In this document: positions 53,906 to 64,000 of the stretch, piece by piece
Position numbering within the stretch: the first letter of the stretch is position 1
Layout of the letters: each line of letters begins with the position of its first letter
Assembly: GCF_024347595.1 (NCBI RefSeq)
Contig: NZ_AP025507.1
Coordinates: 806,001 to 870,000 of the forward strand
Direction: 5' to 3'
DNA: 64,000 nucleotides
Source of the DNA: Vibrio pomeroyi
Lineage (GTDB): Bacteria; Pseudomonadota; Gammaproteobacteria; Enterobacterales; Vibrionaceae
Notes under the pieces: model-generated
Database searches by the model: none
The model's input: only the letters and a program-made list of their open reading frames with translations
Told to the model about the DNA's origin: nothing
Translations under genes and position numbers: made by a program

Positions 53906-54949
53906 ATGCGTATCGAACAAGAACTTAAGTTAGGTTTCAAAGATGTACTCTTCCGTCCGAAGCGTTCTACCCTTAAAAGCCGTTCTCAAGTTGAATTAAC
54001 CCGCGATTTTACATTCAAGCATAGCGGTCGTCAATGGTCTGGTACTCCAGTAATTGCAGCTAACATGGATTCGGTAGCAAGCTTTGAAATGGCAGCTGCT
54101 CTAGCAGAGCACGGTGTTATGACTGCAGTACACAAGCACTACACAGTAGAGCAGTGGGCTGAGTTCGCTAAAACAGCAGATAAGAAAACACTGAACAACG
54201 TATTTGTATCAACAGGTACATCTGAAGCTGAGTTTGAGAAAACTAAGCAAATCATGGCACTTAGCGAAGACTTCGTATTTATCTGTATTGATATCGCTAA
54301 CGGCTACTCAGAGCATCTAGTTGAGTACGTACAGAAAGTACGTGCAGAATTCCCGAACAAAGTTATCTCTGCTGGTAACGTTGTAACAGGTGACATGGTT
54401 GAAGAGCTAATCCTAGCGGGCGCAGACATCGTTAAGGTTGGTATCGGCCCTGGTTCGGTTTGTACTACTCGTGTTAAAACAGGTGTAGGTTACCCTCAAC
54501 TTTCTGCAATCATCGAATGTGGCGACGCGGCACACGGCCTTGGCGGCATGATCATCGGTGACGGTGGCTGTTCATGTGCGGGTGACGTATCTAAAGCGTT
54601 CGGCGGCGGTGCAGACTTCGTAATGCTAGGCGGCATGCTAGCAGGTCACTCTGAGTCAGGCGGTGAAGTTGTAGAGCAAGACGGTAAGCAATACATGAAG
54701 TTTTACGGCATGTCGTCTCAGTCGGCTATGGACAAGCACTCAGGTGGTGTTGCTAAGTACCGTGCTGCGGAAGGTAAAACTGTACTTCTTCCGTTCCGTG
54801 GTTCAGTTCACAACACAATTTCTGACATCCTTGGTGGTGTACGTTCAACTTGTACATACGTAGGCGCAGCGAAGCTTAAAGAGCTAACTAAGCGTACAAC
54901 TTTCATCCGTGTACAAGAGCAAGAGAACAACGTATTCGGTAAAGAGTAA
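53906..54949 (+). CDS. guaC: GMP reductase
   Basis: 347 residues, full length. IMPDH/GMPR TIM barrel with the active-site loop [17 protein letters not shown]; the catalytic cysteine is C186, as in E. coli GuaC. Phosphate-binding [10 protein letters not shown] and [17 protein letters not shown] follow. It converts GMP to IMP with NADPH. Its last 20 codons ([14 protein letters not shown]…) are the attachment region recognised by the transposon next door. The gene is intact; the insertion lies 21 bp after the stop, so its own terminator has been displaced. Confidence 0.97.
54890..54921 (+). other. guaC protospacer, the CAST attachment site
   Basis: 32 bp at codons 329 onward of guaC. It matches the homing guide at 61340-61371 at 23 of 32 positions. 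The PAM is CT at 54888-54889. The transposon end starts after a further 49 bp. The first base is codon position 1, so mismatches at 3, 6, 9, 18, 21, 24 and 30 fall on wobble positions. Confidence 0.93.
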
Positions 54950-54965
54950 TCTGAACGAGTTCGAA

Positions 54966-54970
54966 TAGTT
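54966..54970 (+). other. predicted 5-bp target duplication
   Basis: ATAGT directly before the terminal TGT. Tn7-like elements duplicate 5 bp; the second copy should follow the right end beyond the window. Confidence 0.6.
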
Positions 54971-55038
54971 GTTGAAACATCCATAAATTGATATTTACAA
55001 CCATATATTGATTTTTGGTACAGCCATAATTTGATATT
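54971..55038 (+). repeat. transposon left end with three TnsB-type binding sites
   Basis: Terminal TGTTGAAACA (54971-54980), then three 15-bp repeats of the form CCATAAATTGATATT at 54982-54996, 55002-55016 and 55024-55038, spaced 20 and 22 bp apart. This is the usual left-end layout of Tn7-like elements. Confidence 0.92.
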
Positions 55039-55058
55039 GCCTCTTCATGGTCTAAACT
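55031..55058 (+). promoter_or_regulatory. predicted tnsA promoter inside the left end
   Basis: TTGATA (55031-55036), 16 bp, TAAACT (55053-55058). The -35 box overlaps the third TnsB site, so TnsB could repress its own operon. An imperfect inverted repeat at 55058-55076 (TTGTGTAA..TTACGACAA) covers the predicted start. Confidence 0.45.
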
Positions 55059-55096: not shown

Positions 55097-55786
55097 ATGT
55101 CTGCTCTACCTTTCCTTTCTATAGCCACCCTGCTTGAACTTGAAACTGCGTTTGACACTCCTGCTAGAAACTTAACTAAATCACGTGGAAAAAACATACA
55201 CCGTTACGTCAGTGCTAAGATGGGAAAAAGAGTCACGGTAGAATCTTTTTTAGAATGTGCCGCTTGTTATCATTTTGATTTCGAACCTAGTATCGTTCGC
55301 TTTTGTTCTCAACCGATAAGATTTTCATACAGCCTAAATGGTAAGACCCATACTTATGTTCCAGACTTTCTAGTTCAATTTGATACCGGTGAATATAAGT
55401 TGTACGAGGTAAAGTCCGACAAGGAAAGTTCAAAAAAGGAGTTTCATTGTGAATGGGAAGCAAAAGTTCAAGGTGCGTTTGAGATAGGGTTAGATCTAGA
55501 GCTGGTTGTAGAGGAAGAAATACTGGATGAGGTCATATTTAACAACCTTAAGCTTTTGCATCGGTATGCCTCAAGAGATAACTTGAACGACTTCCATCAA
55601 ATTCTCCTTACTACTTTGAAACGGAATGGTACGCAAACAGCAAAGAGTTTAGGGCATCACCTCGGCTTAAATGGAAGAAAAATATTACCATTCCTGTGTG
55701 ATTTACTCTCTCGAAACCTCCTCCAGACGAGCTTAGAGACCCCACTATCACTTGAGTCTGAATTTGAATTGGGTTGTTATGCCTAA
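55097..55786 (+). CDS. tnsA: TnsA transposase endonuclease subunit
   Basis: 229 residues. N-terminal restriction-like nuclease with likely catalytic E53 (ESFLECAACYHFDFEP), D90 (HTYVPDFLVQF) and the E104-V-K106 motif (LYEVKSDKE). The C-terminal part is a winged-helix-like domain (TAKSLGHHLGLNGRKILPFL). In Tn7 TnsA cuts the 5' strands at the transposon ends, with TnsB cutting the 3' strands, which allows cut-and-paste movement. GAGG lies 7 nt before the ATG. The stop overlaps the tnsB start by 8 bases. Confidence 0.95.
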   Translation: MSALPFLSIATLLELETAFDTPARNLTKSRGKNIHRYVSAKMGKRVTVESFLECAACYHFDFEPSIVRFCSQPIRFSYSLNGKTHTYVPDFLVQFDTGEYKLYEVKSDKESSKKEFHCEWEAKVQGAFEIGLDLELVVEEEILDEVIFNNLKLLHRYASRDNLNDFHQILLTTLKRNGTQTAKSLGHHLGLNGRKILPFLCDLLSRNLLQTSLETPLSLESEFELGCYA

Positions 55787-57590
55787 GAAATCATTTTCAA
55801 GTTTTCATAGGAAGTCAGCACTTCAGCAAGAAAAACTTGAGCAGAATGATAGAGTCGTTGATTCCAACGATGTCGATGAAGCAACATATCAAGATATATC
55901 CGCATTTCCTGAAAATATAGCCAATCAGATTACTTTTCGTCTAAGCATTCTTCGTTTTTTAGCTGGTAAGTGCGAAAAAATCACTCCCAAGACAATCGAA
56001 CCATATCGCGTCGCACTGCAACGGTTACACGACAAAAATATTCCAAGTGCGATATCAATATACAGGTGGTGGTTAGTTTTCAGAGCCTCCGGTTATAACC
56101 CGGTTAGTTTAGCTCCTGACTTTAAAAGTAGAGGAAATAGGGGGGCTAAAGTTTCACCAATTGTTGATTCGATAATAGAACAAGCAGTTGAAAGAGTTAT
56201 TTCTGGTCGAAAGATCAATATCAGCTCGGCACACAGGCGAGTTAAGCGTAAAGTTCGACAATATAACTTAACGCACGGTACAAAGTATCCATACCCTAAA
56301 TACGAGTCTGTAAGAATACGGGTTAAAAAGAAAACTCCCTTCGAAGTATTAGCAGCAAAGAAAGGCGAACGAGTTGCTAAAAGAGAATTCCGCCGTATGG
56401 GAAAGAAGATAACAACCTCGGCCGTATTAGAGCGGGTGGAAATAGACCATACAATGGTTGATATATTTGCGGTACACCCAGTACATCGAGTTACTTTAGG
56501 AAGACCTTGGCTCACGCAGTTAGTAGATTGTTATAGTAAAGCCGTAATTGGTTTTTATTTAGGTTTTGAGCCACCCAGTTACGTATCGGTATCGTTAGCC
56601 CTAAAAAATGCAATACAACGCAAAGATGACTTATTGTCTTCATATGAATCAATTGAAAATGAATGGCTATGTTACGGTATCCCTGACTTGCTCGTAACTG
56701 ATAATGGTAAAGAATTTTTGTCTAAAGCCTTTGATAAAGCATGTGAGTCACTGTTGATCAATGTTCATCAAAACAGAGTCGAAGTGCCTGACAATAAGCC
56801 TGATGTCGAACGTAAATACGGGACGATCAATACTTCTCTATTAGACGATTTACCAGGGAAAGCTTTTAGTCAATACCTTCAGAGAGAGGGTTATGATTCA
56901 GTGGGTGAAGCTACTCTTACACTAGATGAAATTCAAGAAATTTACTTAATTTGGTTAGTAGATATTTATCATAAAGACTCTAACCAGAGAGGCACTAATT
57001 GTCCGAATATCGCTTGGCGAAATGGGTGCCAAGAATGGGAGCCTGAAGAGTTTTCTGGTTCTAAAGATGAGTTGGACTTTAAATTCGCTATTGTTGATAG
57101 CAAACAACTAACCAAAGCAGGGGTAACCGTCTACAAAGGACTGACATACAGCAGTGAACGTTTAGCTGGGTACAGAGGTAAGAAAGGGAATCATAAAGTG
57201 CAGTTCAAATATAATCCAGAGTGTATGGCGGTCATTTGGGTGTTAGATGAAGATGTGAACGAATACTTCACGGTTAATGCTATAGATTATGAATATGCTA
57301 GTAGAGTCTCTCTGTGGCAGCATAAATACAATATTAAGTATCTAGCAGAATTAAATTCAGCAGAATATGACGAAGATAAGGAAATCGATGCAGAGATCAA
57401 AATTGAAGAAATTGCTGATCGTTCAATTCTTGAAACAAAGAAAATTAGATCCCGGAGGCGTGGAGCTAGGCATCAGGAAAATAGCGCAAGAGCAAAGAGC
57501 ATCAGCAATACTAAGCTAGCCCCACCCCAGAAAGACGAAGAAGAAATTGTAATTGTAGATAATGAAGATTGGGATATTGGTTATGTTTGA
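55779..57590 (+). CDS. tnsB: TnsB DDE transposase
   Basis: 603 residues from the ATG at 55779 that overlaps the tnsA stop; a TTG nine codons earlier is less likely. N-terminal helix-turn-helix regions for end binding (about 30-190), a retroviral-type integrase core with D223 (VEIDHTMVD), D308 (LLVTDNGKEF) and E344 (KPDVERKYGTIN), that is a DD(35)E spacing, then a Mu-type C-terminal beta domain and a basic, disordered TnsC-contact tail (KKIRSRRRGARHQ…). All catalytic residues are intact. Confidence 0.96.
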   Translation: MPKKSFSSFHRKSALQQEKLEQNDRVVDSNDVDEATYQDISAFPENIANQITFRLSILRFLAGKCEKITPKTIEPYRVALQRLHDKNIPSAISIYRWWLVFRASGYNPVSLAPDFKSRGNRGAKVSPIVDSIIEQAVERVISGRKINISSAHRRVKRKVRQYNLTHGTKYPYPKYESVRIRVKKKTPFEVLAAKKGERVAKREFRRMGKKITTSAVLERVEIDHTMVDIFAVHPVHRVTLGRPWLTQLVDCYSKAVIGFYLGFEPPSYVSVSLALKNAIQRKDDLLSSYESIENEWLCYGIPDLLVTDNGKEFLSKAFDKACESLLINVHQNRVEVPDNKPDVERKYGTINTSLLDDLPGKAFSQYLQREGYDSVGEATLTLDEIQEIYLIWLVDIYHKDSNQRGTNCPNIAWRNGCQEWEPEEFSGSKDELDFKFAIVDSKQLTKAGVTVYKGLTYSSERLAGYRGKKGNHKVQFKYNPECMAVIWVLDEDVNEYFTVNAIDYEYASRVSLWQHKYNIKYLAELNSAEYDEDKEIDAEIKIEEIADRSILETKKIRSRRRGARHQENSARAKSISNTKLAPPQKDEEEIVIVDNEDWDIGYV

Positions 57591-57601
57591 GAAATCATTA
57601 G

Positions 57602-58594
57602 ATGAATGAAACTCGAGAAGCGCGCATCTCAAAAGCCAAAAGAGCATTTGTATCAACGCCGAGTGTTACGAAAATTTTGGGCTATATGGATAGATGTAGG
57701 GATTTGTCAGATTTTGAATCCGAGCCAACTTGTATGATGGTCTTTGGTGCATCGGGAGTAGGCAAGACGACGGTTATCAAAAAATATTTAAGTCAAAATA
57801 ATCGCGATTCTAAAGTGCGAGGAGAAATAGTTCCTGTTCTGCATATCGAATTACCAGACAATGCGAAGCCTATTGATGCAGCAAGAGAGTTGTTGCTTGA
57901 AATGGGTGACCCATTAGCGCTTTATGATACTGATCTGGCGAGGTTGACGAAAAAACTGACTGACTTGATACCTTTGGTTGGTGTTAAGTTGATCATTATT
58001 GATGAATTTCAGCACTTAGTTGAAGAGAGGTCAAATCGCATTCTTACACAAGTAGGCAATTGGCTCAAAATGATACTCAATAGAACGAAGTGCCCAATTG
58101 TTCTTTTTGGTATGCCGTATTCTAAGGTTGTATTGAAAGCAAACTCACAACTGCATGGACGATTCTCAATTCAGTGTGAACTCCGCCCATTTATCTATCA
58201 GGGTGGTGAAGGTGTATTCAAAAAATTTCTGGAAAATCTTGATAAATTATTACCTTTTGTCAAAGAGGCTGGGTTAGCAGAGAAAAACCTTCAGAAAAAA
58301 CTATATGCTTTTTCTGAAGGTAATATGCGTTCGCTGAGAAACCTCATCTATCAAGCATCGGTTAATGCCATTGATAATCATCGGGCCACGATTATTTATG
58401 AAGATCTAGTTTTTGCTGCTGAGCTCACATGTAGTAACAAGACCTACACATGGAAAAACCCTTTTGAAAACGGAGTCAAGGTGACGGAGGAAATGTTGCG
58501 TCCTCCACCAAAGGATATTGGATGGGAGGATTATCTGAAAAACATTAATTCAAGATCAAAAAGTAAGCTTAATGGTGGGAACATGTTTGAGTAA
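57602..58594 (+). CDS. tnsC: TnsC AAA+ ATPase
   Basis: 330 residues. Walker A GASGVGKT (49-56), Walker B LIIIDEFQHL (D134, E135), sensor region FGMPYSKVV. TnsC forms a ring on DNA at the target chosen by the TniQ-Cascade complex and activates TnsAB. It starts 11 nt after tnsB with no gap for a promoter. No tnsD/tnsE or tniQ follows it, as expected for I-F3, where tniQ sits with the cas genes. Confidence 0.95.
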   Translation: MNETREARISKAKRAFVSTPSVTKILGYMDRCRDLSDFESEPTCMMVFGASGVGKTTVIKKYLSQNNRDSKVRGEIVPVLHIELPDNAKPIDAARELLLEMGDPLALYDTDLARLTKKLTDLIPLVGVKLIIIDEFQHLVEERSNRILTQVGNWLKMILNRTKCPIVLFGMPYSKVVLKANSQLHGRFSIQCELRPFIYQGGEGVFKKFLENLDKLLPFVKEAGLAEKNLQKKLYAFSEGNMRSLRNLIYQASVNAIDNHRATIIYEDLVFAAELTCSNKTYTWKNPFENGVKVTEEMLRPPPKDIGWEDYLKNINSRSKSKLNGGNMFE

Positions 58595-59060: not shown

Positions 59061-60449
59061 TCAAAGATATTGGAAAGCTTCAATTACTCGTTGTTTAAAG
59101 CTTGTCAGTGTTAGGTCCGCGATCTCGGCAGAGTTGCTTTCCGATTTTGTGCTACCACTCTGATCAATTCGTCCAGAGAAATTGATGGAGACACTATCGG
59201 TATTGTCTCCATTATCACTAAGGGGGAGATTTGAATTTGTAGCTATGTGTTCTAGTGCTTGGTTTGGTTTTTTCTGAGGCCTCCTCAAATAACGACAGCT
59301 ATCTGGAATATCTCGTTCAACTTCCTCTGCAAATTCGATGAGTTTTGGGGCGGCAAAAGTATATAGCCATGCTTCTTGGTTCGGGCATGAAGTCATACGG
59401 AGTATACGACCAAGGATTTGGCGAAAGTAGAGTTCGGTCTTTATGTTGCTCAGATGGCAACATACTTGGAGTCTCGGAATATCTGTGCCCTCACTGACCA
59501 TACCAACACTCACAATCCACTCGGTGTAGTCGGTTCTAAATTGTTTAATTCTGACTTGGGAGTCATCATTTTTGTATGTGACTATCGTGGTTGTTTGATT
59601 GAATGTATTTTTGAGTAGTGAAGCTATTTCTATGGCGTGATTGACAGATGTAGCTACGATTAAGCCTCCGGCATATGGGGATTGACTTCGAATTTTCTTC
59701 AAGCGAGTAACGGCTGTTCCCAAAATATGAATCAAAGCAGGTTTGTTGTTGAGAATAGTAGAGTAGTTAATTTCACTCTCAGATATAAGCTCATTGAATG
59801 AGTTAAATGATTCAATATGATTATCTAACTTAATCGTGGATTTATCACAATCAATAAGCGTAATCGTTGGTTTACGGCAAACGCCGTCTTGGACAGCTTG
59901 CGCTAGTGTGTATTGATAATCACATACAATCGTCCCCTCAGGATCGCTGTATGACGAGAGTACAACGGGGGGCAAATTTGAACGCCAAGGTGTACCAGTT
60001 AAAGCGAGTGTATAAGTGGCTACTTTCTTAATCTTGCATAGAATCAGTTGGCCCCAGACATTGCTGTTCTCATTATTATCACCACCGCAGTGATGTATTT
60101 CATCAAAAACACAAAGTACACGATATTTTAAAAGCCTATTCCAGAACTTGTCATCTAGGTGTGTTATTGATTGGTAAGTGATAGATGTACCTAGAGAGCC
60201 AAACTTTCCATCCATTTCATCTTGTAGTGTTTCGGAGAAGTTACTTTGTATACTCGATGACACAGTCTTTGATGGAGAAAAGCAGATAACGAAATCGATC
60301 ATAGAGCGTTCAAATAAGCCTTTAGCTAGATTGGCGGCCATAAATGTTTTGCCTGCACCTGGTGTGGCTTGTGCTAAAAAATGTTTGTTTCCTTGAATGT
60401 AGTGGGCCATTGCGTTTCCAATACACTCTGATTGCCAACGCCTTAACAT
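59061..60449 (-). CDS. SF2 DEAH-type helicase, transposon cargo
   Basis: 462 residues. ResIII-type two-RecA-domain helicase: motif I ATPGAGKTF (28-36), motif II DEIH (116-119), motif III TGTPWRS (151-157), motif V SVGMVSEGTDIPRLQ and motif VI QILGRILRMT. It lacks nuclease, methylase or target-recognition domains, so it is not a complete restriction subunit. Its ATG overlaps the stop of the upstream gene (ATGTTAA, 7 nt), so the two are translationally coupled and probably work together. Role unknown; defence or a DNA-processing helper are options. Confidence 0.88.
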   Translation of the reverse strand: MLRRWQSECIGNAMAHYIQGNKHFLAQATPGAGKTFMAANLAKGLFERSMIDFVICFSPSKTVSSSIQSNFSETLQDEMDGKFGSLGTSITYQSITHLDDKFWNRLLKYRVLCVFDEIHHCGGDNNENSNVWGQLILCKIKKVATYTLALTGTPWRSNLPPVVLSSYSDPEGTIVCDYQYTLAQAVQDGVCRKPTITLIDCDKSTIKLDNHIESFNSFNELISESEINYSTILNNKPALIHILGTAVTRLKKIRSQSPYAGGLIVATSVNHAIEIASLLKNTFNQTTTIVTYKNDDSQVRIKQFRTDYTEWIVSVGMVSEGTDIPRLQVCCHLSNIKTELYFRQILGRILRMTSCPNQEAWLYTFAAPKLIEFAEEVERDIPDSCRYLRRPQKKPNQALEHIATNSNLPLSDNGDNTDSVSINFSGRIDQSGSTKSESNSAEIADLTLTSFKQRVIEAFQYL

Positions 60450-61000
60450 TCTTTTTTACCACCAGTATTTTGATTAATTAGAGATATAGTGTTTGTCCAC
60501 ACATTCAATTGAGCCATTAGCTTTGCCGACTTGTTAGTCGCTTCTTGGTAACTCGGTTGTATGAATGGTTGTAAGGAATTGAAGCGTCGCATAAGGCTTT
60601 GGTATTCATCAATCTCAGCAAGAGTTACTGTGAGCTGCGCAGTTATGTCTTGTCGTTCAACCTCTAATTGGGCTTTTGCTATATTAAATTCGGATATTTT
60701 TAGTCCCTGTTCTTTTGCTATGACCTTTTTGCGTCTAGGAACAATGTTAAATTGCGTTGAATCAAAATTATCTGATTTTGAAAACGTTCTGTTTCGACCC
60801 TCCCCCGTTGCCTGTAATACACCTAACGAGAGAAGTCGCTCCAATGACCTCGCTACAAAAAGTCGAGCAACGCTACTGTTCTCATACTGGTCAGATTCTT
60901 TTTGAATCGAACTTCTAATCTCAATAATGCTGAACTGGTTTGAATTGCATCGATTAATTGCATCAAAGATATCTTGATTAATTTTTACTTTTGAACTCAT
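60443..61000 (-). CDS. unknown partner of the cargo helicase (winged-helix-like plus coiled coil)
   Basis: 185 residues from the ATG at 61000. A longer frame to 61108 would overlap xre and the operator and is rejected. Residues about 1-75 read as a winged-helix domain (VKINQDIFDAINRCNSNQFSIIEIRSSIQKE…ARLFVARSLERLLSLGVLQATGEGRNRTFSK). Residues about 95-150 form a helical coiled coil (FNIAKAQLEVERQDITAQLTVTLAEIDEYQSLMRRF). I do not recognise a family. First gene of the two-gene leftward operon whose -10 box lies inside the Xre-type operator. Confidence 0.75.
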   Translation of the reverse strand: MSSKVKINQDIFDAINRCNSNQFSIIEIRSSIQKESDQYENSSVARLFVARSLERLLSLGVLQATGEGRNRTFSKSDNFDSTQFNIVPRRKKVIAKEQGLKISEFNIAKAQLEVERQDITAQLTVTLAEIDEYQSLMRRFNSLQPFIQPSYQEATNKSAKLMAQLNVWTNTISLINQNTGGKKEC

Positions 61001-61025
61001 TGTTGAATCTATTTGTGAATTTTTG

Positions 61026-61057
61026 CGGATTATAGTCCGTGGCAATAAATGCATCAA
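61026..61057 (-). promoter_or_regulatory. promoter of the helicase operon with embedded Xre-type operator
   Basis: On the minus strand: TTGATG (61057-61052), 17 bp, TATAAT (61034-61029). The -10 box sits in the centre of CGGATTATAGTCCG (61026-61039), whose core GGATTATAGTCC recurs at the guide promoter. On the plus strand the same site gives TATAGT, 54 bp before xre, so the site may also autoregulate xre. Confidence 0.75.
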
Positions 61058-61092
61058 GAGGCGATAGTTTTTGTTTTTTAGAGTCGTTTTAA

Positions 61093-61299
61093 ATGAAAGA
61101 CTTAGCAAAGCGCTTTGGGGCCAAATTACGCGGAAAACGCAGGGATAAGAAGGTTTCTCAAGACCAACTAGCTTTGTTGGCTGATATCGATCGAAGTTAT
61201 ATTGGCAGGATTGAGCGTGGGGAAGTAAACATCACACTCGAAAAAGCCTATCAGTTGGCTCAAGTTCTTGAGTGTGATGTGAGAGATTTGCTGCCTTAA
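61093..61299 (+). CDS. xre: Xre-family HTH regulator of the CAST
   Basis: 68 residues, a single Cro/C1-type helix-turn-helix domain (LRGKRRDKKVSQDQLALLADIDRSYIGRIERGEVNITLEKAYQLAQVLECDVRDLL) of the restriction-controller type. It is encoded right beside the homing-guide unit, as is known for I-F3 transposons, where such a protein controls the atypical guide. Two copies of a palindromic core flank the gene (61027-61038 and 61400-61411); both cover -10 boxes of leftward promoters. Repression is the likely action. Confidence 0.9.
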   Translation: MKDLAKRFGAKLRGKRRDKKVSQDQLALLADIDRSYIGRIERGEVNITLEKAYQLAQVLECDVRDLLP

Positions 61300-61311: not shown

Positions 61312-61399
61312 TAAAGTATCTACTTATTCAGCAGTAAACTGTTATTTAACGCGAATGAAAGTGGTCCGTTTGTTATCAACTACTTTACAGTAGTATTGA
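61312..61399 (-). CRISPR. stand-alone homing-guide unit: atypical repeat, guaC spacer, atypical repeat
   Basis: Read on the minus strand. First atypical repeat 61399-61372: stem CTACT/AGTAG, 4-nt loop, handle TTGATAAC. Homing spacer 61371-61340: 32 nt, matching the guaC end. Second atypical repeat 61339-61312: GTTTACTGC…, stem CTGCT/AGTAG with loop GAATA. Both repeats differ from the typical repeat (GTAAACTGCCGAATAGGTAG…) but keep the hairpin that Cas6 cuts. Such privatised repeats are known from I-F3 elements. Confidence 0.94.
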
Positions 61400-61430
61400 G
61401 GATTATAGTCCTCATTAATTTCTAAAGCAA
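61397..61430 (-). promoter_or_regulatory. guide promoter with embedded Xre-type operator
   Basis: On the minus strand: TTGCTT (61430-61425), 17 bp, perfect TATAAT (61407-61402) inside the 6-bp-arm palindrome TGAGGACTATAATCCTCA (61414-61397). The predicted start near 61395 lies just before the first guide hairpin, so the transcript would be almost leaderless. Confidence 0.78.
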
Positions 61431-61477: not shown

Positions 61478-61625
61478 AAGGCCTCCTATCAATTCGGCAG
61501 TTCACACAAAGCCAATACCTGTTACCACGCAAGTGACATTATCAGCTACCTATTCGGCAGTTTACTCATCCTGCCCCTGATGAACGCGACTACAAGTATT
61601 ATCAGCTACCTATTCGGCAGTTTAC
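61478..61625 (-). CRISPR. short type I-F array, three repeats and two spacers
   Basis: On the minus strand: repeat 61625-61598, spacer 61597-61566 (32), repeat 61565-61538, spacer 61537-61506 (32), terminal repeat 61505-61478. The first two repeats are identical (GTAAACTGCCGAATAGGTAG then CTGATAAT). The last keeps only its first half, the usual decay at the leader-distal end. Neither spacer matches the rest of the window well. The array is co-directional with the cas genes. Confidence 0.95.
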
Positions 61626-61752: not shown

Positions 61753-62352
61753 TCAAATTAGGGGGACAGGTTGAGATTTGTTTTCAGTATTCGCAAGACC
61801 ATAGCTGCTAAATAGTGCATCTCCGTCTAAGCGAGCTTCTTTGAATATTCTTATATTGAGTCGAAAACTACCGCCACGACTTTTACTGTCTTCCTCAAGC
61901 GAGTGGTAGTGATGGAGTACAACAATTTCGTGTTGTTTGAACGAGGATAAGTCAAACTCTTCACCTCTTTCTTCCGCACGTTTTTTTAATCTTTTCGCTT
62001 TTCTAGCTTGTCCAGCAGGTGTTGCTTTGTCTATCGACTGGCAACGCTTAAATGAAACATACTCGCAACCGTCAGGGACAACCTTTGTATTTGATATATC
62101 AAAATAGTGCAGCTCTTTCATTTGGGTAAAGTAGTGCTGTTTGAGTAGCAAATCGAGCTCGATTTTATTTGTGCTCACAAAAGAAATTTTATTTCCGATG
62201 GTATCGTCACTCCAAAGAGGAAATGAAACGCCAATATTTCTTGTTTCATACTCATAGTTAAAGCCATGAAGAATCCGAAGGCACTTAGCGGCTAATGATT
62301 CATTGTTACAACGCGCTGGCAGAAAAGTGACAGTTTTGTAGTACCACTTCAT
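61753..62352 (-). CDS. cas6f: Cas6f (Csy4) crRNA endonuclease
   Basis: 199 residues. N-terminal ferredoxin-like fold with the likely catalytic histidine H29 (LRILHGFNY), the Csy4 position. An arginine/lysine-rich helix (AGQARKAKRLKKRAEERGEEF) should grip the repeat hairpin. C-terminal GGSFRLNIRIF…FSSYGLAN is typical. It cuts the pre-crRNA at the base of the repeat stem and stays on the 3' end of the guide in Cascade. It starts 2 nt after the cas7 stop. Confidence 0.94.
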   Translation of the reverse strand: MKWYYKTVTFLPARCNNESLAAKCLRILHGFNYEYETRNIGVSFPLWSDDTIGNKISFVSTNKIELDLLLKQHYFTQMKELHYFDISNTKVVPDGCEYVSFKRCQSIDKATPAGQARKAKRLKKRAEERGEEFDLSSFKQHEIVVLHHYHSLEEDSKSRGGSFRLNIRIFKEARLDGDALFSSYGLANTENKSQPVPLI

Positions 62353-62354
62353 AC

Positions 62355-63416
62355 TTAATCCCCCTTATGTTGGAACATTCCACCCTTGATGATGTTTGCG
62401 ACCAAAAAATGCAGGTCGTTTATGGTCTCTTGATTTGGTTTATCTGAAGACGTGAGTGCTTCAATATAAGACTCTGTTTGCTTAAGGATAGAAAAGAAAT
62501 CTTTTTGCGTAGAAGGGTGACGGTAGCAAGTGACATCTTCTTTATGAACCCCAAACCGACCGACACGTAGTGCCTCAGTTGCATCGGGGTACCAGTCGTC
62601 TATGGTCGCAATGGCGGCACCAGTTTTATAAATGCCCAATATTGGGCTCCGTTCACCGTCAACCGTTGTGCTTTGAAAAATTCGTCCCTTGCTTTGTTTC
62701 TTAGATTTATTGGTGTTGTTACTTTCATTTTCGGTGAATGCTTGGCTCGGGAAAATCTGTTTATTGGTTGGTAGCCGCAAGGTGGCTTTCACTTCAAATA
62801 TGGCCAAACCATTAGAGTGAGAAAAAGCATTTCTGGTCATTTGAGCAATAGCTTCCCAATCTTTATGGTTCTCAAAGTCATTTCTTTCTAGGTAGTTAGC
62901 CCTTATGTCTTGAAATTTGACAGCATCTCCCGCCCAGGGCCAAGGGGTTAACTCTATATCCCAGCAATAGGCTTTTTTAGTATTTTTCCACAGCCATGAA
63001 CCATTACATATATTGACTAGATATCGAGAAACCAATTCATTCCAACCAATATTTTCTTCATACGCTTTGATTAGCTGCATTAGTGTGTGCTTAACCGTAG
63101 ACGAATTACACTTGTAAGGTTTGCGTAGCTCAGAAGAAAAAGAGACCGAAAAGTAGCATTCAATGTTGCTCGCACCGAAAGGAGCATGACAAAAATCGAC
63201 TTGATGTAGGTTACCTTGAGCCAGTTTTTCAGCGGTTGCACTCTCTTTGGTCCGCCCCGACGGCTCATAAGCTAAGGCTGCGGTTTCCATTTGTCCTATT
63301 ACAGTACGAGAAGTGTAGGTTAAGGGGGTCTTTCGCCCATCTGGCCACACAACTAGAAAGCACACATCAGAAGGATCAATAGAACGTTCATAGGCTAGGT
63401 TAGTCGGTAGTTCCAT
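62355..63416 (-). CDS. cas7f: Cas7f (Csy3) backbone subunit
   Basis: 353 residues. Csy3 family: LAYERSIDPSDVCFLVVWPDG, VDFCHAPFGASNIECYFSVSF, and WKNTKKAYCWDIELTPWPWAGDAVKF. Six copies form the spiral that holds the crRNA and contacts TniQ in I-F3 transposition complexes. Its start overlaps the end of cas8/5 by 17 bp. Confidence 0.95.
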   Translation of the reverse strand: MELPTNLAYERSIDPSDVCFLVVWPDGRKTPLTYTSRTVIGQMETAALAYEPSGRTKESATAEKLAQGNLHQVDFCHAPFGASNIECYFSVSFSSELRKPYKCNSSTVKHTLMQLIKAYEENIGWNELVSRYLVNICNGSWLWKNTKKAYCWDIELTPWPWAGDAVKFQDIRANYLERNDFENHKDWEAIAQMTRNAFSHSNGLAIFEVKATLRLPTNKQIFPSQAFTENESNNTNKSKKQSKGRIFQSTTVDGERSPILGIYKTGAAIATIDDWYPDATEALRVGRFGVHKEDVTCYRHPSTQKDFFSILKQTESYIEALTSSDKPNQETINDLHFLVANIIKGGMFQHKGD

Positions 63417-64000
63417 GATAGGTACTCCTTGGCTGCACAGAAAGGTAGTTTTGATAGCACCTGTGATGCCACAAAATAGTATTTATGTCGGTGTTTTGAT
63501 CAAAAGTGGTTGGCTCAATCAGACCAATCATGCACTCAGAAAAAGCATGTTTATAACCTCGAAGAGAGTTAGGTTTGTCGGTCGGCTCTTCAAGAAAATG
63601 ATACCCAACACAGCTTGGGGTTAATTTTCGGTTCTCTTTAACTTCCGATAAAATATCACTCATGTTTTCGATAGGTTCAGTATGCATCGATAGCCATTTG
63701 CCGGTTTTCTGAGGAAAGGATTGAATCGTCTTTTCTAACGTTGAAAATGACCGGATGTATTTGAAATCTGCAATGGCTATTTTAGCGGAACCTCTGGCAA
63801 ACCGTTTCGGCAGAGCTCGAACAATCGTACTTTCATCAACGCTCAAGCTACGATCAAATTTAATCACTAAACTAAATACCAAATCACACTGCCAGTCATC
63901 GTGTGTAGCGGGTGGAGATATGGTGTGGTTTGCTTTTTGTATATATTCTTTTGTTAAACCGCGTTTTTCAACGTGTAGTTGATGGACACAGATGGCAAAC
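63400..64000 (-). CDS. cas8f: Cas8f/Cas5f fusion, C-terminal part
   Basis: The frame stays open to the window edge (…VEKRGLTKEYIQ…DDWQCDLVFSLVIKFD), so only the last ~200 residues are seen; the first ATG in view (63882) is internal. Position directly before cas7f, overlap with it, and a Csy1/Csy2-like body (KRFARGSAKIAIADFKYIRSFSTLEKTIQSFPQKTGKW) support Cas8f/5f. In I-F3 the two are one protein that recognises the PAM. Upstream, beyond the window, tniQ is expected. Confidence 0.88.
   Translation of the reverse strand, partial: FAICVHQLHVEKRGLTKEYIQKANHTISPPATHDDWQCDLVFSLVIKFDRSLSVDESTIVRALPKRFARGSAKIAIADFKYIRSFSTLEKTIQSFPQKTGKWLSMHTEPIENMSDILSEVKENRKLTPSCVGYHFLEEPTDKPNSLRGYKHAFSECMIGLIEPTTFDQNTDINTILWHHRCYQNYLSVQPRSTYHGTTD

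Follow-up and report, generated by a model that had tools for sequence, protein, structure and literature searches.

Type I-F3a CRISPR-associated transposons (CASTs) that home to guaC by means of a dedicated crRNA, with an ambiguous PAM and with mismatches at wobble bases, have been described (PMC11406308), and four loci, guaC among them, take 94% of the homing events (PMC12774636). In VpaCAST (VpaI-7) of V. parahaemolyticus an Xre box overlaps the −10 box of an atypical one-spacer array and also that of the gene transcribed divergently from xre (PMC12150760).

The locus analysed here lies in a stretch of 64,000 nucleotides of Vibrio pomeroyi DNA (the window) and is a further example of this already described mechanism. 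With a probability of about 95% it is a type I-F3a CAST with a one-spacer atypical array and a guide-directed insertion behind guaC. It resembles Tn6677 (V. cholerae VchCAST, I-F3a), whose TnsC (7rzy) is the best hit of the window TnsC, and the chains that match TniQ and Cas7 best (6lnd, 6v9p and 6v9q) presumably belong to the Tn6677 system as well. Host and cargo are different from those of Tn6677, the window element carrying a dpd cluster. Guide target, relaxed PAM and wobble mismatches are the same as in the reviewed guaC-homing I-F3a elements, and compared with the available part of that review nothing is different in kind (PMC11406308). VpaCAST likewise has an atypical one-spacer array, with its Xre boxes over the −10 box TATAAT (PMC12150760) in the places of the probable Xre operators of the window (61398-61413 and 61027-61038), but it homes to yciA, whereas the window element homes to guaC.

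By its predicted gene content the element is assigned to type I-F3 (I-F3a), close to Tn6677. The I-F3 gene set is complete, consisting of tnsA, tnsB and tnsC together with tniQ, cas8/5, cas7 and cas6, and these genes are open over their full length. Read from guaC, the order is left end, tnsA, tnsB, tnsC, the ResIII/helicase gene, orf221, xre, atypical array, typical array, cas6, cas7, cas8 and tniQ (Table 1); the same layout is found in relatives, and the helicase/ResIII-like gene beside xre is kept in many of them according to tblastn. TniQ, TnsC and Cas7 are close to solved I-F3 chains. Family profile searches with the window part of cas8 gave no match, and this gene was recognised by its position and its conservation in relatives. 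Searches of the own genome for an I-F Cas3 (TIGR02562) and for Cas1 (PF01867) gave no match. The true start of orf221 is probably the ATG near 61005. The cargo at L005:6319-17717 (G000:C2:874319-885717) contains a dpd cluster for 7-deazaguanine DNA modification, in which PADLOC identified two DpdA, two DpdB, DpdC, DpdE and QueC. Two diverged dpdA-dpdB pairs face away from each other in this cargo, and further genes there are, as we take them, queE-like and folE-like.

Table 1. Features of the insertion site and of the element (window positions unless stated otherwise)
Feature	Position	Strand	Basis
guaC, GMP reductase, attachment gene	53906..54949	+	NCBIfam NF003470 and TIGR01305 above cut-off; intact, 347 aa
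PAM, CT, with the T as wobble base of a Thr codon	54888..54889	+	sequence
protospacer, 32 bp, starts on codon position 1	54890..54921	+	23/32 identical to guide
target-site duplication ATAGT, 5 bp	54965..54969	+	same bases directly after right end, G000:C2:910850
left (guaC-proximal) end, TGTTGAAACA, with three TnsB-site-like CCATAA/CCATAT repeats	54970..55040	+	inverted copy at right end
tnsA	55097..55786	+	Pfam PF08722 above cut-off
tnsB	55752..57590	+	Pfam Mu-transpos_C above cut-off, rve below cut-off
tnsC	57602..58594	+	TniB above cut-off; near full-length match to Tn6677 TnsC 7rzy, E 7.4e-176
helicase/ResIII-like gene	59061..60449	-	Pfam PF04851; tblastn in relatives
orf221, divergent from xre, in the place of VPA1392 of VpaCAST	60443..61108	-	comparison with PMC12150760
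palindrome GGATTATAGTCC between xre and orf221, probable Xre operator	61027..61038		
xre, Cro/CI-type regulator (RtaC/VpxR-like)	61093..61299	+	Pfam HTH_3 above cut-off
atypical repeat downstream of guide (GTTTACTGCTGAATAAGTAGATAC...), outer border approximate	61312..61339	-	
homing guide spacer	61340..61371	-	
atypical repeat upstream of guide (CTACTGTAAAGTAGTTGATAAC)	61372..61393	-	
palindrome GAGGACTATAATCCTC, probable Xre operator, contains −10 box TATAAT (61402-61407)	61398..61413	-	
−35-like box TTGCTT, 17 bp upstream of −10 box	61425..61430	-	read from sequence
typical CRISPR array, three repeats (last degenerate), two spacers	61478..61625	-	
cas6 (csy4)	61753..62352	-	TIGR02563 above cut-off
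cas7 (csy3)	62355..63416	-	TIGR02566 above cut-off; best structural match 6v9q, E 3.4e-184
cas8/5, 3′ part (640 aa in all)	63400..64000	-	gene runs past window, L005:1400-3322
tniQ, 397 aa	beyond window, L005:3323-4516	-	matches 6lnd/6v9p, E about 1e-217

Both Tn7-like inverted ends and a 5-bp target duplication are present. The right end lies beyond the window at G000:C2:910850 and is an inverted copy of the left end with three similar repeats, so that the element is 49,881 bp long; the CCATAA/CCATAT repeats of the left end resemble TnsB sites. The initial annotation had set the terminus to 54971 and its distance from the protospacer to 49 bp. Both values were replaced once the right end was located: because the ATAGT duplication is present at both flanks, the element starts at 54970 and the spacing is 48 bp, the duplicated bases included.

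Realignment of the guide spacer AAACGGACCACTTTCATTCGCGTTAAATAACA to the guaC site AAGCGTACAACTTTCATCCGTGTACAAGAGCA confirmed the annotated match of 23 of 32 bases, the mismatches at positions 3, 6, 9, 18, 21, 24, 25, 28 and 30 and the CT PAM adjoining the protospacer. A match of this kind might be a mere likeness of an ordinary spacer to guaC, since 3 of 300 shuffled spacers attained 23/32 somewhere in the 64-kb window, and the score alone is thus only moderately unusual. The site adjoins the terminus, however, and in the region 54701-54972 none of 5000 shuffled spacers exceeded 21 matches on either strand; at one fixed place, with 0.26 per base, the probability of 23/32 is about 7.5e-8. In addition, seven of the nine mismatches fall on third codon positions of guaC (hypergeometric p = 0.001) and 18 further elements of the family have related guides. 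The match at the terminus is not due to chance, a reading to which we give next to no weight. The claim that no better match exists elsewhere held in a scan of the window, where the guaC site is the top match of the spacer (self excluded) and the runner-up reaches 20/32. When the 5.66-Mb genome was searched with a degenerate pattern of guide and site, allowing up to three further mismatches, only the guide and the guaC site were found. Comparison of the guide with plasmids and phages gave no credible match, and the two spacers of the typical array had no credible match among plasmids. The reading of this spacer as a guide by which an I-F3 CAST homes to the 3′ end of guaC is supported by the anatomy of the element, by the duplication at the predicted place and by the related guides of the 18 other elements.

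The family was searched for such elements. TnsA was found in 115 of the 329 family genomes, mostly in distant form, and Cas6 in 76 of the 329. A Cas6 at least 45% identical to that of the window occurs in 22 elements, 19 of which have a guaC-type guide (15 distinct sequences). The other three are G233, in which the attachment gene, to judge from its protein sequence, is presumably yciA, and G058 and G064, where no guaC guide was found in the stretch read. The atypical spacer of the G233 element (L055), aligned without gaps, agrees with the yciA end in only 19 of 32 bases; a one-base gap seems to be required, and the repeat beside it looks shorter.

For 15 elements with a guaC site (the window and 14 relatives' loci, the yciA element L055 being left out) the distance of the left end from the protospacer was determined. 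It is 47-52 bp in 14 of them and 67 bp in G121. The latter element (L047, contig C14) adjoins a match resembling a 3′ fragment of guaC (residues 264-347); the full guaC of this genome is located on contig C1, and the fragment is possibly a second att copy. Right ends were searched for in 17 genomes; in seven of these the 5-bp flanks of both ends match, and they differ from genome to genome (ATAGT, GTTTA, TTTAA, AAAAT, ATAAC, ACAAG and AAATT). In G015 the ends lie on separate contigs; the flank GCCGC of G121 agrees too, with the right end on another contig, and was left out of the count; the remaining genomes yielded no flank pair for comparison. Since the flanks agree within and differ between genomes, the sequences point to several independent insertions at a single place measured off by the guide.

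Several loci showed further peculiarities. In L075 (G146:C2, right end at about 464612) the duplicated ACAAG is followed by a left-end-like sequence, TGCTGAAATAACCATAAATTGATAT, which would indicate tandem elements or a relic. L044 (G147) has approximately 2.6 kb of additional, insertion-sequence-like DNA between cas6 and the typical array. A broken, split or partial tnsA beside guaC was seen in L054, L056, L057, L058, L064-L066 and L068; these are probably elements at this att site that have decayed or been interrupted.

Across 18 pairs of a guide and its own site we counted 136 mismatches, 5 to 10 in each pair, and the window with its nine is near the top. These are 18 of 19 possible pairs; L174 (G067) is missing, as the end of its guaC departs from the site pattern. 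Third codon positions account for 123 of the 136 mismatches and sixth guide positions for 69. As the protospacer starts on codon position 1, every third guide base faces a wobble base, the sixth positions among them, and every sixth base is flipped out in class 1 effectors (PMC12774636). The annotation had discounted the mismatches at these flipped-out positions. This covers four of the nine mismatches of the window but is only half of the pattern, the fuller description being the third codon position.

These mismatches also bear on whether the element could have come to guaC via a TnsD-like protein that recognises guaC, leaving the spacer as a relic. Some I-F3 elements do have a TniQ/TnsD dedicated to their att site, parE being one such site (PMC11406308), and nine mismatches in the window guide would suit such a route. 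Against it, the guide tracks the guaC protein sequence in the 18 pairs with mismatches almost only at wobble bases, the insertions keep the guide-measured distance, and in the region beside cas8 only one tniQ was seen. We regard this route as very improbable; the insertion was almost certainly guide-directed.

The sites used for comparison came from guaC, which was found in 300 of the 329 family genomes. They were taken from the best 30 loci of the 300, from 20 hand-picked stretches, from further family loci and from the element loci, and were counted only if they fitted the KRTTFIRV codon pattern with a C at PAM position −2. Two guide sequences (L133 and L135) caught by this pattern were removed before the tally; four additional guaC loci (L216-L219) were counted by script only. 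All 41 distinct combinations of PAM and site have a CN PAM, as expected from the conserved Thr codon, and CN is the preferred PAM of VpCAST (PMC12774636).

Of the guide substitutions placed on the cas6 tree, the five sixth-position wobbles have 24 and the five remaining wobbles 9; the first and second codon positions have 4 over the 16 in 1-23 and 7 over the six in 25-32. The difference between 24 and 9 has a p of 0.007 on this tree, but the count can be inflated by recombination and depends on a tree which may not be the guide's own. A tree-free comparison of the diversity at flipped-out and read wobbles gave p = 0.04, and p = 0.13 after the site diversity was subtracted. The guide of L172 lies outside its locus, behind an inserted sequence, so that the offset computed for this locus is meaningless. 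Positions 3 and 9 are invariant in the 15 distinct guides, and most sampled sites differ from the guides there.

We compared the guides with 43 family sites and found a mean of 7.9 differences, against 4.5 between one site and another; the consensus site, used as a guide, would do better with 3.4. Adaptation of a guide to the allele of its own host was not seen, the mean being 7.56 mismatches with the own host and 7.90 over the 43 sites. Because own-host mismatches are hardly fewer, it seems that guides are passed on as part of the element and are not updated from the host. An alignment of the spacer to many guaC alleles had been proposed as a check. With 63 distinct sites it showed that other alleles fit the window guide slightly better than the allele of its own host, the best having seven mismatches. 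Copying of the guide from the guaC of a neighbouring family was also considered, and no source was found among the 63 sites. Two of them are within four mismatches of the consensus guide, one from a non-family genome (G402/L200) and one from the family; guaC was found in 1 of 4 genomes of the family of G402 and in 7 of 24 genomes of another family.

In four relatives, G279 (L040/L131), G272 (L041/L132), G216 (L133) and G315 (L135), a guaC guide and related cas genes occur together with TnsA, TnsB and TnsC that are only 34-44% identical to those of the window. The ends of these elements start with TGTAAAA and not with TGTTGAAACA, and by hand count their distance to the protospacer is 47 to 50 bp. 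In G279, Cas6 is 96% identical to that of the window and the guide differs at position 25 only. From this we infer an exchange between CAST lineages in which the guide-Cas module recombined with the transposase module.

PAM ambiguity and mismatch tolerance have been reported to help in reserving the crRNA for the element and keeping it from I-F1 systems (PMC11406308). An I-F1 Cas2-3 is present in 4 of the 19 guide-bearing hosts (G152, G015, G067 and G054). The expectation that guides of I-F1 hosts have more read mismatches was not supported (3, 6 and 4 versus 2-5, p = 0.22). Four of the five genomes whose guides have a first- or second-position substitution in 1-23 are I-F1 hosts; for this post hoc association the Fisher test gave 0.0013, or 0.005 with two related genomes taken as one. 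In the guaC lineage the guide might be inherited within the TniQ-Cas module and have moved between two transposase lineages, its lasting seed mismatches being selected, for example against chromosome cutting by I-F1, and not the result of drift. We consider this doubtful.

Compared with the commonest bases of the guides, the window guide differs at G6, C21, A25 and T28, and its A30 is one of three equally frequent bases among 12 guides. G6, C21, T28 and A30 are common to the window, G252 and G279. A25 is private to the window among the 19 guides, and the otherwise same guide of G252 and G279 has C25. The point against the guide is its nine mismatches, of which two (25 and 28) are PAM-distal and two read ones (3 and 9) lie in seed segments. 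In VpCAST the first two 6-base segments, which here hold 3 and 9, act as seed; full mismatch of 25-29 abolished transposition and that of 31-32 impaired it, and a target with three mismatches, two of them in the seed, lowered transposition 20-fold (PMC12774636). The annotated number of five effective mismatches (3, 9, 21, 25 and 28) is a fair count, but in view of the VpCAST seed and 25-29 data these mismatches are not harmless.

The guide might have inserted the element in an earlier C25 form and have decayed since, so that the A25 guide is now impaired. The private A25, the C25 of both relatives and the loss of transposition upon full mismatch of 25-29 would agree with this, as would the presumably lower constraint on a guide after insertion. 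The available part of PMC12774636, however, does not report on a single extra mismatch at 25, and T28, which is located in the same segment, is present in the window, G252 and G279, whose elements sit at +48, +47 and +47 (G279 counted by hand) in different genomes. T28 therefore probably survived at least one move, and since G279 has another transposase it probably passed through more than one insertion, although the window and G252 could also go back to one insertion and differ by one base through a later indel. Decay from a C25 form is a tentative explanation that we think less probable than its absence; the guide accounts for the insertion, though it may have lost strength since that event.

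On the minus strand the guide is preceded by promoter-like boxes of its own (TTGCTT, 17 bp, TATAAT; 61430-61402). The core of the palindrome GAGGACTATAATCCTC over the −10 box is found again at 61027-61038, and both palindromes are probably Xre operators, as judged from sequence and position. A scan for the exact core in 16 elements found it at two or more places in 12, at one in two (L046 and L050) and at none in two (L049 and L057); L055 has a third copy. Variant palindromes are located at the guide in L050, L049 and L057, and in L049 and L057 the 20 kb examined showed no xre. In VpaCAST the overexpressed regulator repressed the guide promoter, whereas the regulator at baseline did not (PMC12150760).

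Taken together, the guide would be transcribed from this promoter and processed, and the crRNA would be loaded into a TniQ-Cascade of TniQ, Cas8/5, Cas7 and Cas6, which is predicted to bind the last codons of guaC beside the CN PAM. TnsC and TnsA/TnsB would then insert the element about 47-52 bp past the protospacer and directly after the stop codon, so that guaC stays intact; that the A25 guide itself directed this step is an assumption. The guide is expected to tolerate the allele of its host since the differences lie almost entirely at wobble bases, half of these being flipped-out sixth positions. After establishment Xre probably represses the guide promoter.

For one natural element, the window and the right end together provide the complete set: guide, target, insertion distance and target duplication. 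The wobble mismatches tabulated for the whole family, the exchange of transposases and the frozen guide go somewhat beyond the available parts of PMC11406308 and PMC12774636. The comparison of the family is a natural mismatch experiment on the I-F3 effector, which reveals the positions that are free, those that are held and the mismatch load that is carried, and it is useful for judging the specificity of CASTs. If the guide is indeed an inherited part of the TniQ-Cas module with selected seed mismatches, its substitutions would be a record of how TniQ-Cascade reads its target: free at the flipped-out wobbles, rare at the first and second bases of 1-23, and fixed at 3 and 9.
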